Assembly: GCA_018902385.1 (NCBI GenBank)
Contig: JABSSW010000026.1
Coordinates: 186,001-250,000, forward strand
Direction: 5' to 3'
Length of the DNA: 64,000 nucleotides
Source of the DNA: Physcia stellaris
Lineage: Eukaryota; Ascomycota; Lecanoromycetes; Caliciales; Physciaceae
A model generated the notes under the pieces. The model was given only the letters and a program-made list of their open reading frames with translations, did no database searches and had not been told where the DNA came from. Below are positions 22,033 to 28,794 of the stretch, piece by piece. The translations under genes were made by a program, and so were the position numbers. Position 1 is the first letter of the stretch. Every line of letters begins with the position of its first letter.

Positions 22033-22037
22033 GGTTT
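22033..22037. repeat. Target-site duplication, left copy (GGTTT)
   Basis: GGTTT directly precedes the left LTR and the same five bases follow the right LTR at 27296-27300. This is the 5-bp duplication expected of a Copia integrase. Confidence 0.9.
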
Positions 22038-22191
22038 TGTTACAAATATGTAGAATGCAACGTGCTTATTATTCATGATAATACTATCTATCGTACATGT
22101 GATGAATGTGAATTATTGTACAGAATTTGCACGTTAATCTATAACAAAATAACGTTTTGACATTGTTTTTGATGATAAATTTATTTCAACA
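22038..22191 (-). repeat. LTR, left copy (3' LTR of the minus-strand element)
   Basis: 154 bp, beginning TGTTACAAATATGTAGAATG and ending ATTTCAACA, so TG...CA ends are present. It aligns end to end with 27122-27295 apart from 20 single-base transitions and one 20-bp length difference. An A-rich run on the element's sense strand (complement of 22192-22199) sits against it and would be the polypurine tract. Confidence 0.93.
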
Positions 22192-22259
22192 TTTTTTTTC
22201 GAATTTGCAAAAATATAAAATCATGATGTTTAATTCATTTCGAACATGTCGATAAATCG

Positions 22260-25200
22260 TTAATATTTGAACGAAAATAAAAATTTGATAAAATCGTCGA
22301 TTGACATAATGTCGATCGTTATGTATTTAAATTCAATACGATTTTTTTTAATTTCGTTTTTTACGTAATAATATACGATATCAACGTGTTTAATGCGATT
22401 ATGATGTATCGAATTTTCATTGAATATTTTGACGTTTTGATTGTTAATATTTATCAATATTTTGACGTAATTGTTCGATTAATTTTGAATTCGTAAATCA
22501 ACGAATAATTGTTTGAATCAAATAATTTTTTTGACGACAAATAATATGATCATATATTCGACGACGCAAATAAACGTGATCACGATAAATTGAAATTTTG
22601 ATATTCAATTTATCGAATCGTCGTTTAATAAAAACAAATATATTTCGATAAATTTTTTGAAAATTTTGTCACGAATTCAATTTGTATCGCAATATATTTC
22701 GATGTTTTATTTTTTGTTGAAATTATCGTCGTAAATTATACAAAAATCGATTGTGAAATTGAAATAAATTATAACACGTTTGATTGTTTTGATATAATTA
22801 AAATTGAAATTTTGAATAAATCGATTGATTATGAAAATCGTATTCGTTACATTTGATTTGATTTTTATTATTGCAAACATGATTGAATTCATTATTGTTT
22901 GATATTGTTTAATATTTTGATCGATAATTTGATTAACGTTGAAAATTAAATCAAATGATTTTTTCATAAATGTTCGAATTGATTTCGCATTTTATAAATT
23001 CAAATTTTTTAACGACGTATTGAATATATGTTTTTTGATTAAAACGAATTATATGTATTTCGCGATTTTTGAAAATAATTATATCAAAATAAAAATTTAT
23101 TGATTCAAAATCAATCATATCGAAAACGTTATTGAATTTCGTTTTTGTTTTATTAATTATGATTTTATTGAAAACAATGATTTTGATATTATCGATTCAT
23201 GTAATAATGATGAAATTTTTGAAATCAACATTCGTGACGAATATATTTTGATTCGCGTCGAAAAAATTGAAAATTAATTTTTGTAAAAAAAATTCGAACA
23301 AACGTTTATATCATAATTTGAATGATTGTTTCAAATTATACAATGTTTTGTTCAATTTGCAAATATTTTTGTCATTGTTATATTCAATCGAATATTTAAC
23401 ATAAATATTTAAATCAATAAATTCGTATAAAAACGCAATTTTCACGTTTATTTGTTCAATTTTCAAATTCAAAAAAACGACAACGACGAATAAAATTCGA
23501 AAAATCATTGATTTAACGACGAAAACAAAAATTTAATCAAAATCAATATCGTATTGTTGTAAAAATTTTTTGACGCATTATTTAATTTTGTATCGTATTA
23601 CAACGTTATCGACATTGCGTTTGAATTTGTAAATTCATTTATCGTTCAACGATTTTTTTTATCGAACGTGAAATTTATTAAATTTCAAATGTAATTTTTC
23701 GATAAAAAATCGAATTTTTTTTTTCATTGTTTTTAATCATTGTGAAAAATGAAAATTTCGTGCGACGTCGTTGTAATTATTTGATTTTTTTTCGTCGATC
23801 GTCAATATTGTTATGAATTTTTTAAACGAAAAAACGTCGATGTTTTCGACGTAATCGATTAACAATGAAACGAAATTGATCGTATCAAATTCAACGTTTA
23901 TAATTGAAATTGATTGAAAATCAACAATATTGTCGAACAAAACAATTAAATTATTTGAATTTCAATTTCAATTTACGAACAATTCACGCATTGTTAAATG
24001 AAACATCGTGAAATTGACAAAAATTATGACATTATAAACGATAAAATTTACAAAAAAATTTATTCGAATTGTTTTTTTGTTTGAACGCATTGTAACGTAT
24101 TTTTGTGAAATTTTTTGAAAATTTTTTTGTTGTTATGACGTTATTGATTTTTGTATAATAATATTTGAAAATTTCATTTTGATATATAATCGAATTTCAA
24201 TGTTTTGAAAAATTTGAAATTGAATTTTTTGTTTTTTTGTAATGAATTTAATGTGAATAACAAAAAAATTATCATTGTTGAATCAACAATTGATTCGATA
24301 AAATTTTTATCGAATTCGATGTCAATTTTGATGTTGATTTGTAATCATAAATATCGAAATTTTTGACGTATTCGATTTTTGATTAATCGATATATAAATT
24401 CGATAAATGATATTATCGTTATATTCAATAAAATTTTTTTTTTCGACATTCGATTTCAAAAGATTTTTGATTTTTTTGTTAATAACGACGTAAACGATTG
24501 ATTCGAATAAATACATGTTCGTCAATTTCGAAAATTGTTCGTAAATATTTTCGAACGATAATTGATTTTTCAAATACAAAATTAAACGTCGATTTTTAAT
24601 ATACGTCATTGCATATATAATGTTTGATCACAAAAAAATCGATATGTTTTTCGTCAATAACGTTGTTTTGATTATGATGATGAAAATACGTTGATATGTT
24701 TCGATTATATCATTGACGTTTTGAACATTTGTTGAAATTAAATTGAATTCAATGTTTTGATTGTCAAAATAATTGATTGATTGCGTGTTACGAAATTCGT
24801 TGTCATAATTTGTACGTACGATTTTGACGTTAATATCGAATTAACGTTTAATTCAATTGATATATTTAATAAAACATTGTAATCATTCGTGTTTGTTTTT
24901 GACGACGTATATTTTCGTTCAACGTAATTTATCATCGATAATATTGATATAATAACGTTCATTTTTAAAATTTTCGATCGTTATTAATATTAAATCAATG
25001 TGAATAATATGAAACGTTTTTTCGACATGATAAATATTTTTTTTATTCGATTTTTTTGTTTTGATTAATTTGCAAATATTGCAATGATTATTTTTGTAAT
25101 CGTTTTGATAAAAATGATTCAATTTTTTTAATATTGACGTAATAAAAAAAAATTCATATGATTTAAATTTCGATGTCATACAATGAACGACAATGATAAT

Positions 25201-26235
25201 ATTGTTAACAATATAATCATTTGATATAATTGCAATTTCAAAACGTATAATTCGTTGTTTTGCAAAAAAACATATTCGATTGATTTGTTTTGATATTTGA
25301 AAATGTAATTTTCAATGTTTCAATAAACGTTTTGTTTTTCGAATGTTGATATTGACAACAAATTTATTGACGAATTTGACATGTAAAAAATTGACAAATA
25401 AATGAATTGATTATTTGCATTGTTGTAAAAAAAACGAACAATAATTTGATTATTTTTTTTTTCAACAATAAAACGAATTTTGTTTGCAATTACAACATGT
25501 TCGATATAAAACATGAAAAAATGTATGAAATTTCGATTTTTGCACACGTGAATATTGACGTTCGAATTTATATATTACAATATATCGTTGATTGAATAAT
25601 TAATGAACAAAATTTGTTTTTAAAATTCAATCAACGACGTTAATTGTTATTGTAAATTTTGAATTTTTTTTAAAATTTTGTCGTATAAATGATCAAACAT
25701 ATTTTTATCAATTCATTTTTTGAAAACGTTTTTTGAATAATTATAATAATATTTTTCAAAATCATGATTGATGAAATCGTTGTTTATGCATATTTGATTG
25801 ATACAAAAAAAATCAATGTATTCAAATTTTAATATATTGAAACGCATACGTTTAAATTTTTCAAAACGATCAACGATCAATGCAATTGAATTTGATTTTG
25901 TTATCGTATCGATGATAATTTTAACGAAATTCAAAAAAAAAATCGATTTCGATGAAATTTGTGTTTTCGAAAATTCATTCGTTACGTTAACGAATCACGA
26001 AATAATTGAAATAAATTAATTTGTGCATTTTGAACAACAAAATATTTTGACAAAATACGTCGACAATAAATTTCGAATTAACGTTTTCGATAATCAATTG
26101 ATTGTATAATGATTCAACGATTTTGATGTAAAATTCGACGTTCGTTAAAATAACAAATCGTTCAATAAAATCGAAAATGATATCGACGAAAAAAACGAAA
26201 TTTTTTTTTTGAAACGTTTTGTTATTTTTGTTCAA
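22260..26235 (-). pseudogene. Decayed Copia gag-pol
   Basis: Only fragments are readable. At 25987-26235 and 25713-25934 are gag-like pieces. At 25320-25547 a stretch ends SSINLLSISTFEKQ, like the end of the protease and start of the pre-integrase region. At 24919-25179 CNICKLIKTKKS with HIDLI recalls the integrase zinc/pre-integrase and core. At 24322-24609 the frame recalls the integrase C-terminal GYS...YRVW region. At 23311-23508 QINVKIAFLYEF and LNKTLYNLKQS match the reverse-transcriptase QMDVKTAFLNG and LYGLKQS motifs. At 22707-22967 and 22260-22457 are YQTIMNSIMFA and NSIHHNRIKHVDI, matching the RNase H region. Numerous stops separate them; the catalytic Asp is replaced in QINV. Nothing here can be functional. 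Confidence 0.85.
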
Positions 26236-27121
26236 TAAATCAATGATGTTGAATTCGTTATGACAATGATAAAAAAACGATAATTAACGTCGATTGCATT
26301 GAACAAATAAAAAAAAAATTATTCAAATTTCGTTCGTGTTTTTCGACGACGATGATAAAATTCGTGAATTTGATTTTCGTTTTTGTATCGATAAAATTTC
26401 AATCGATATTTTTGTTGTATAAAAATTCGACGATAAACATTGATTTTATTGATAAATTGATTGTTCATTCAACATAATTGATTCGAAAATCGTTTTTGAC
26501 GTCGATTTTTCAATTGAAATATTGTTTTGATTTTGAAATGAAAACGACAAAATTGTGAATGATGTTTGACGTAATTATTGTAATATTTAAATTTGAAAAT
26601 TTGAATCATATAAATGAAAAAAAAAACGTATATGATTCGTGAAATCGTATAAAACGTGTAAATTTCATGTCGTATTTGTTTTTTTTTTTTTTTTTCATTT
26701 CGTGACAAATAAATTCGAAATATCAATTCGAAACAATGACGAATTCATTAAATCATCGAATCGTGTATGTGAAATTTCGTATTTTTTGAAAACGTTTTTA
26801 TCGAAATCGAATGATCGATCGTGCGTTCGAATTTAACGTTCGTTTGAACGATAAATGACGTTTTCATCGATTGACGTCGATATTAATTTTTTGAATTTTT
26901 GAAAAATTAAATGACGATCGTTAAAATAAACAATATACATTTTATTGACGACATTAAATGACGATAAATTCGTTGTAAATTCAATTTGATGTTTTCGAAT
27001 TTGATCGTCGTTTAATCAATCAAAAATTTCTCGATCGATGCATAAAATTAACGTTTAAACGTTATAAAATAATATGAATCGATTCGAATGATATTTGACA
27101 AACATTGTCGAATTCATAATT

Positions 27122-27295
27122 TGTTACAAATATGTAAAATGCAACGTGTTTATTATTCATGATAATATTATTTATCGTACATGTGATGAATGTGAATTAT
27201 TGTACAGAGTTTGCACGCTAGCCTATAACAGAATAACGCCTTGGCATTGCCTTTGGTGGTGAGTTTACTCTACTCCAACAGAGTTTACTCCAACA
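27122..27295 (-). repeat. LTR, right copy (5' LTR of the minus-strand element)
   Basis: 174 bp, TGTTACAAATATGTAAAATG to CTCCAACA. It is less mutated than the left LTR over its right half and contains a 20-bp internal duplication (GAGTTTACTC...CCAACA occurs twice, around 27261-27295) that the left LTR lacks. Confidence 0.93.
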
Positions 27296-27300
27296 GGTTT
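27296..27300. repeat. Target-site duplication, right copy (GGTTT)
   Basis: Matches 22033-22037 exactly and abuts the right LTR. Confidence 0.9.
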
Positions 27301-28709: not shown

Positions 28710-28794
28710 TGCCCGCGGCAGGAATCGAACCTGCGTTGATTCGGAGCTGCGAGAAAACCACAACGAAACGTGATAACCACTACACTACGCGAGC
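28710..28794 (-). tRNA. tRNA-His (GTG) with a 13-nt intron
   Basis: Acceptor GCTCGCG pairs with CGCGGGC (one T-G pair), discriminator A73. The T arm is GCAGG-TTCGATT-CCTGC with the B box GGTTCGATTCC; the D arm holds TAGTGTAGTGGTTATCAC. The anticodon stem TTTCG/CGAAT has a T-T mismatch at 27-43. The loop reads TT-GTG-G, then the intron TTTTCTCGCAGCT, then C, which puts the intron at the canonical position one base 3' of the anticodon. Length 85 = 72 + 13. The genome also encodes a G just 5' of base 1, though in eukaryotes the His G-1 is added by Thg1. Confidence 0.92.

Follow-up and report, generated by a model that had tools for sequence, protein, structure and literature searches.

Transposon copies of the lichen fungus Physcia stellaris carry a RIP-like mutation pattern led by CpC and CpT

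Introduction

What kind of process strips a transposon of almost every cytosine that precedes a pyrimidine, while cytosines preceding A or G remain abundant? This question is raised by a 5,258 bp Copia-type long terminal repeat (LTR) element of Physcia stellaris, located in a stretch of 64,000 nucleotides (contig JABSSW010000026.1 of assembly GCA_018902385.1, forward-strand positions 186,001 to 250,000), hereafter referred to as the window. In Neurospora, repeat-induced point mutation (RIP) follows the context order CpA > CpT > CpG > CpC. The original prediction, made from the window alone, proposed a repeat-confined C-to-T mutation with a preference for a 3′ pyrimidine (CpY), and this proposal is borne out by two polarised element families and by the types of stop codons in RVT_2, RVT_1 and DDE_1 matches. 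A RIP-type system probably inactivated the element, with the 3′-neighbour order CpC > CpT >> CpA > CpG; canonical RIP runs the other way, with CpA first. P. stellaris is a lichen-forming fungus (Physciaceae, Caliciales) that was cultured from ascospores, and the available sections of its genome report include no RIP analysis (PMC7513301).

Results

CpC and CpT are almost absent from the element

The interior of the element (22192–27121, 4,930 bp) has a GC content of 22.4%, compared with 49% in the 10 kb on either side. It contains no CpC or GpG, a single CpT and a single ApG, alongside 209 CpA, 347 TpG and 272 CpG, whereas both flanks show ordinary values for all of these dinucleotides. Only two CC, GG, CT and AG dinucleotides were observed where 550 are expected from the base composition, and 1,000 mononucleotide shuffles of the interior yielded 498–600. 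This near-total loss, including its two exceptions, had been correctly read from the sequence by eye. Alignment of the two LTRs revealed 21 differences, all of them transitions: 13 at CpT, six at CpC, two at CpA and none at CpG, with one of the CpA differences probably reflecting an alignment ambiguity next to the 20-bp length difference. The earlier count of 20 (12, 7, 1 and 0, respectively) is in substance the same: transitions only, led by CpT and lacking CpG.

Direction of change in the Copia-type family

A search with a 1.3-kb interior piece returned 40 matches to this family (family 1; 40 scored of 47 candidates), and 20 of the 39 besides the window copy were fetched. In a rough alignment, 18 of these 20 contain at most two CpC and at most ten GpG in the interior. 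Two copies (L017 and L035) contain 122–139 each of CpC and GpG; their matches stop at approximately 3.1–3.2 kb, and the remainder may be unrelated flank. The polarity table comprises the window copy and seven of the fetched copies, the other 13 being excluded as partial, rearranged or more diverged. The reference was the less mutated copy on contig C20, which is 77% identical, over 3,154 bp; since it is itself mutated on one strand, the table undercounts CpC on that strand.

Against this reference, the window copy shows C-to-T changes at 244/244 CpC, 350/357 CpT, 107/452 CpA and 15/348 CpG sites, amounting to 716 C>T changes in approximately 3.1 kb, with seven in the reverse direction and seven transversions. 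All 570 CpY sites scored in the stretch from 150 to 3,154 bp, measured from the 5′ end, are changed. The seven other full-length copies behave similarly, with 95–100% of CpC, 82–97% of CpT, 4–22% of CpA and 1–7% of CpG changed per strand, and each of the eight carries 560–716 C>T changes, 7–18 reverse changes and 4–9 transversions. The base 5′ of the cytosine has little effect (0.90–0.92 at CpT for all four bases). Columns in which the cytosine is kept in all eight copies number 431 for CpG and 308 for CpA, with none for CpT or CpC. Thus, CpA and CpG are abundant as originally described, but the term "spared" was too strong, and the "strict" pyrimidine context of that description is in fact a graded preference. 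Mutation tapers at the element edges across approximately 100 bp, both in the window copy and in several of the others, but how far outward it reaches differs between copies; copy L027 has 11/11 CpY sites changed in the final 50 bp at its right end.

The same preference in a second family

A second family, in which RVT_1 is followed by rve, is probably Ty3/Gypsy, judging from this gene order. It was polarised by a stop-free reference copy on C5, with a stop-free sibling on C12, and the sample comprises 12 mutated copies out of 40 matches (40 scored of 229 candidates). CpC and CpT changes far exceed those at CpA and CpG in all 12, which carry 332–538 C:G>T:A changes each against 8–18 in the reverse direction and 6–35 transversions. 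With strands pooled, CpC is changed at least as often as CpT in 12/12, with a tie in the saturated copy L054. In the two least mutated copies, 74–89% of CpC, 44–55% of CpT and 2–3% of CpA and CpG are changed per strand (approximately 85% and 50% overall for CpC and CpT, with CpA and CpG near background), while 1–4% are changed in every context in the unmutated sibling. In the five most mutated copies (L054–L058), the values rise to 92–99% for CpC, 83–100% for CpT, 3–18% for CpA and 2–9% for CpG.

Rate ratios calculated as −ln(1−p), uncorrected for background, are 2.7 [2.4–3.2] for CpC/CpT and 27 [16–50] for CpT/CpA in the two least mutated copies, where CpA/CpG (1.4 [0.7–3.6]) is compatible with 1. 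The values for three late copies are 1.25 [1.06–1.51] for CpC/CpT, near saturation, 28 [22–36] for CpT/CpA and 2.6 [1.7–4.0] for CpA/CpG. The ranking of CpA above CpG therefore rests on the late copies together with family 1. The CpC/CpT preference is thus present, with polarity, in two element families; neither shows mainly CpA-to-TpA change. Susceptibility falls steeply with context, in the order CpC > CpT >> CpA > CpG, and the progression runs from CpC to CpT, with leakage into CpA later.

A first-stage copy mutated on one strand

On the plus strand, the C20 element (5,245 bp) contains 84 GG against 347 CC (binomial p = 5e-39 if the two were equal beforehand), while 6.6 kb of its flank contains 408 and 371, respectively. 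Counted in 400-bp steps, GG ranges from 2 to 12 inside the element and from 13 to 38 in the flank until a second low-GC repeat is reached; the loss stops at the element bounds. GG/CC ratios lie between 1.06 and 1.44 in four other stretches that contain stop-free frames, so a natural bias as large as this, and in this direction, would be unusual in the genome. Columns in which a CpT cytosine is lost in C20 but kept in another copy number 22 on one strand and one on the other, whereas the same comparison for CpA gives nine and nine. The RVT_2 match of this copy has four TGA stops and no TAG, indicating that the second G of GG, namely the C preceding a C, was changed. The simplest reading is that the copy underwent one or a few episodes on one strand, starting with CpC.

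Approximately 3 kb from this barely mutated copy lies a heavily mutated repeat (L042, C20:576300-577600), a low-GC segment whose last two 400-bp windows are devoid of CpC and GpG.

Genome-wide fingerprint

When CpC is lost from the template strand, TGG becomes TGA; this codon may also arise from CGA>TGA at CpG. In transposon matches, 695 of 838 stops are TGA. The 137 RVT_2 matches (150 scored of 165 candidates) contain 401 TGA, 101 TAA and three TAG, with four matches stop-free; the 150 RVT_1 matches (150 scored of 527 candidates) contain 250, 33 and three, with ten stop-free; and ten matches to DDE_1 DNA transposons contain 44, three and none, with one stop-free. Some elements contribute several partial matches to these totals. 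CAA+CAG codons outnumber TGG in four open frames without stops (22/13, 32/17, 34/13 and 19/9), which contain 6, 11, 21 and 3 CGA; given this abundance, a CpA-first process should yield many TAA and TAG stops. A changed code in which TGA encodes Trp was also considered and rejected, as it would not account for the loss of GpG and CpC across the whole element; among 17 SET-domain matches from the same genome, stops occur in a single match, as one TAG and one TAA.

Among 519 windows of 500 bp from the fetched loci, which mostly adjoin the two families and overlap so that some windows are counted twice, 275 fall below 32% GC. Fifty-nine of these lie outside both families; all 59 contain at most three CpC+GpG, 54 contain none, and none is of the CpA type. 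Five of six 2.5-kb stretches picked blind are ordinary, and the sixth (L063) holds a mutated 1.5 kb at C22:300000-301500, with 3–7 CpC+GpG, 33–43 CpT+ApG and 67–75 CpA+TpG per 500 bp. This segment has the composition of an intermediate stage, in which CpC+GpG are nearly gone, CpT+ApG are approximately halved and CpA+TpG are normal.

Structure of the element and its surroundings

The features of the element are summarized in Table 1. It is called Copia-type on account of the minus-strand RVT_2 match and the LTRs with GGTTT duplications. At 174 bp, the right LTR exceeds the left (154 bp) by 20 bp, and its end (window 27250–27295) contains a short direct repeat (ACTCCAACAGAGTTTACTCCAACA) within the unmutated part. 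A minus-strand transfer RNA gene (Rfam RF00005, 52.4 bits) lies at window 28710–28794, 1.4 kb downstream of the element.

Table 1. Features of the LTR element and their positions in the P. stellaris window
Feature	Position	Strand	Basis or remark
LTR element (5,258 bp)	22038-27295		P. stellaris window
Target-site duplication GGTTT, left	22033..22037		sequence
Left LTR, 154 bp	22038..22191	+	mutated towards inner side; outer 50 bp: 4/8 CpY sites changed
Copia-type element interior	22192..27121		hardly any CpC/CpT on either strand; 2 vs ~550 expected
RVT_2 (PF07727) reverse-transcriptase match	22984..23658	-	3 TGA + 2 TAA stops; coding strand minus
Leftover CpY-type dinucleotide AG	24461..24462		dinucleotide count
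Leftover CpY-type dinucleotide CT	27030..27031		dinucleotide count
Right LTR, 174 bp	27122..27295	+	inner part mutated; last 50 bp 0/11 CpY sites changed, preceding 50 bp 3/9
Target-site duplication GGTTT, right	27296..27300		sequence

Methyltransferase genes

A PF00145 search for the RID, DIM-2 or Masc1 homologues suggested by the original prediction returned four matches in three genes, on C3, C5 and C6. The C3 gene is DIM-2, matching PDB entries 9bap and 9baq of the solved Neurospora protein (E ~1e-188), the latter entitled as a DIM2-HP1-H3K9me3-DNA complex. The C5 gene encodes a RID-type protein of 932 aa (P0121) with a 99% match to G7Y79_00005g016670 [Physcia stellaris], a hypothetical protein. 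The C6 gene (L013:3907-5562), with three exons, encodes a second RID-like protein with a PF00145 domain. Both RID-type genes are class-I-like and divergent. In a tree with the C3 DIM-2 as a distant row and long branches, the C6 protein is closer to RID than to DIM-2; among 111 rows, it belongs to a 36-row group that has support and is separate from the C5 group, although the long branches leave the deep order unsure. Its close relatives come from Heterodermia and mostly from lichen-type or other metagenome contigs. The catalytic PPC is invariant in the alignments of relatives of both proteins, and at the position of EQT in the C5 protein the C6 protein carries the motif EET. The predicted fold of the Heterodermia relative P0007 (pLDDT, the predicted local distance difference test, 78.7) matches DNMT1, MET1, ZMET2, DIM-2 and the HaeIII methylase, matches that are uninformative on base specificity. 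A divergent RID-type methyltransferase is a plausible candidate for the mutator.

Discussion

By behaviour, the process is RIP without its CpA feature. The changes are almost solely C:G>T:A, they are confined to transposon copies and spare the flanks, as seen in the ordinary window flanks, at the C20 bounds and in the ordinary blind stretches, and RID/Masc1-class genes are present on C5 and C6. Several observations weigh against assigning the pattern to a RIP-type system. The CpA preference that defines canonical RIP is lacking, as the window copy makes plain. TAA is not rare among the stops of the RVT_2 matches (101/505). The single-strand case is one copy. Two open-frame Gypsy copies, 96% identical over 2 kb (C5:1165720-1167720 and C12:59511-61511), are unmutated and show no excess of CpC/CpT change between them over the 2 kb compared; the system accordingly does not act on every repeat, and these copies are repeats that have so far escaped the process. 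Finally, DIM-2 and the two RID-type genes all stand as candidate mutators, with nothing observed that links the mutations to one of them in particular.

The mutator could instead be DIM-2, guided by methylation of lysine 9 of histone H3 (H3K9) and HP1, with no need for the RID-type genes. The genome encodes the orthologue, Neurospora DIM-2 methylation prefers CpT according to a 2026 review (PMC13297926), and N. crassa possesses a second, Dim2-dependent RIP pathway (PMC12543289). However, the pathway that targets repeats themselves is that of Rid1 (PMC12543289), and in Zymoseptoria tritici the DIM-2-linked mutation falls on CpA, with methylation almost lacking at CpT (PMC8016269); we consider this explanation unlikely. 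The CpT-preferring methylation by DIM-2 on record (PMC13297926) and the differing stages of the copies would also suit slow decay, in which CpC/CpT methylation in repeats is followed by a long period of normal 5-methylcytosine deamination, with no mutator burst. Such decay appears quite improbable: it should affect both strands equally, yet the C20 copy retains 84 GG against 347 CC, and it sits poorly with 716 C>T changes against seven transversions and with the complete change of 570 CpY sites in the window copy.

Saturation or the choice of reference could in principle make canonical CpA-first RIP appear CpY-directed, and RIPCAL-type analyses have assigned a dominance of CpT to fungi whose RIP is canonical, including Neurospora Tad1 (PMC2621366), RIP-capable control fungi with dominant CpT>TpT (PMC7882544) and Copia families of Colletotrichum truncatum (PMC6180176). 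The C. truncatum families are also CpA-depleted, however, with an index of 0.09–0.12 (PMC6180176) against 1.30 for the window element. This explanation is already contradicted by the polarised tables of both families, in particular by the two least mutated Gypsy copies, and by the lack of CpA-type patterns among the 59 other low-GC windows, leaving it very improbable. Editing of complementary DNA (cDNA) or single strands by an APOBEC/AID-like deaminase would explain why the coding strand of the C20 copy lost GG, as expected from minus-strand cDNA editing. We regard it as extremely improbable, considering the small effect of the 5′ base, the change of the second G of GG in the C20 stops and the TGA-rich stops of DDE_1 transposons, which lack a cDNA stage; a six-frame genome search for APOBEC_N (PF08210), the sole deaminase family looked for, gave no match. 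Judged from the assembled sequence, a Nanopore/Illumina hybrid of ~31x and ~30x (PMC7513301), errors of assembly or base calling in repeats have next to no chance of producing hundreds of changes per copy at differing stages, one copy changed on a single strand and edges exact to the element, alongside open-frame copies in the same assembly.

The RIP-type reading places P. stellaris close to known systems without matching any of them. It shares with RID-dependent RIP of Neurospora crassa and other Pezizomycotina the C:G>T:A changes in repeats, the sharp confinement to elements, and the RID and DIM-2 genes, but canonical RIP acts at CpA/TpG (PMC12543289), whereas CpC and CpT lead here, with CpA at least 16-fold behind CpT. 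Botrytis cinerea, Sclerotinia sclerotiorum and Magnaporthe oryzae likewise combine a CpT context with a RID-class gene, and Amselem and colleagues (2015) proposed a RID motif for the CpT signature; in those fungi CpT occurs alongside CpA, and CpC has no occurrence in the portion of the text searched (PMC4352252). Microbotryum violaceum also shows repeat-directed C>T changes in a non-CpA context (TpCpG; PMC4352252), but it is a basidiomycete with a Masc2-like gene and no RID according to the same portion, and CpG is the least mutated context in P. stellaris. Cladonia rangiformis, another lichen fungus, has sharply bounded low-GC transposon compartments and RID and DIM-2 homologues; its RIP was defined by GC content, and the terms CpA, TpA and dinucleotide are absent from the main text as available (PMC12542154). 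A CpT lead alone is therefore already known; the distinguishing feature here is that CpC is changed at least as fast as CpT while CpA is largely kept. Within the open PMC literature searched, in the sections available, CpC is not reported as the leading RIP context.

In mechanistic terms, repeats would be recognised as such and mutated in the sexual cycle by a RID/Masc1-class cytosine methyltransferase, for which the RID on C5 and the divergent RID-like protein on C6 are candidates, with a possible contribution from DIM-2 on C3. A bolder proposal, which we put forward tentatively and hold to be possible rather than probable, is that in Physcia-group lichen fungi a RID-family enzyme, perhaps the C6 protein, has come to read C/T instead of A as the 3′ base, so that RIP starts as a one-strand CpC burst, proceeds to CpT and reaches CpA late; specificity would then be evolvable, with no fixed CpA rule.

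With an inverted context established in a lichen fungus, the CpA rule would no longer be general. It would also follow that index-based tests can overlook heavily mutated genomes: the window element, at 23% GC, has RIP indices of 0.53 and 1.30, and judged by standard indices, for which stricter cut-offs of 1.15 and 0.75 are in use (PMC7882544), it would be called unaffected. Inactivated genes in such genomes would bear stops from TGG>TGA, not TAA or TAG. For RID itself, the 2026 review lists catalysis in vitro as not detected (PMC13297926). The contrast between these fungi and those with canonical RIP would offer a natural means of identifying the region of a RID-type enzyme that recognises the nucleotide following the target.

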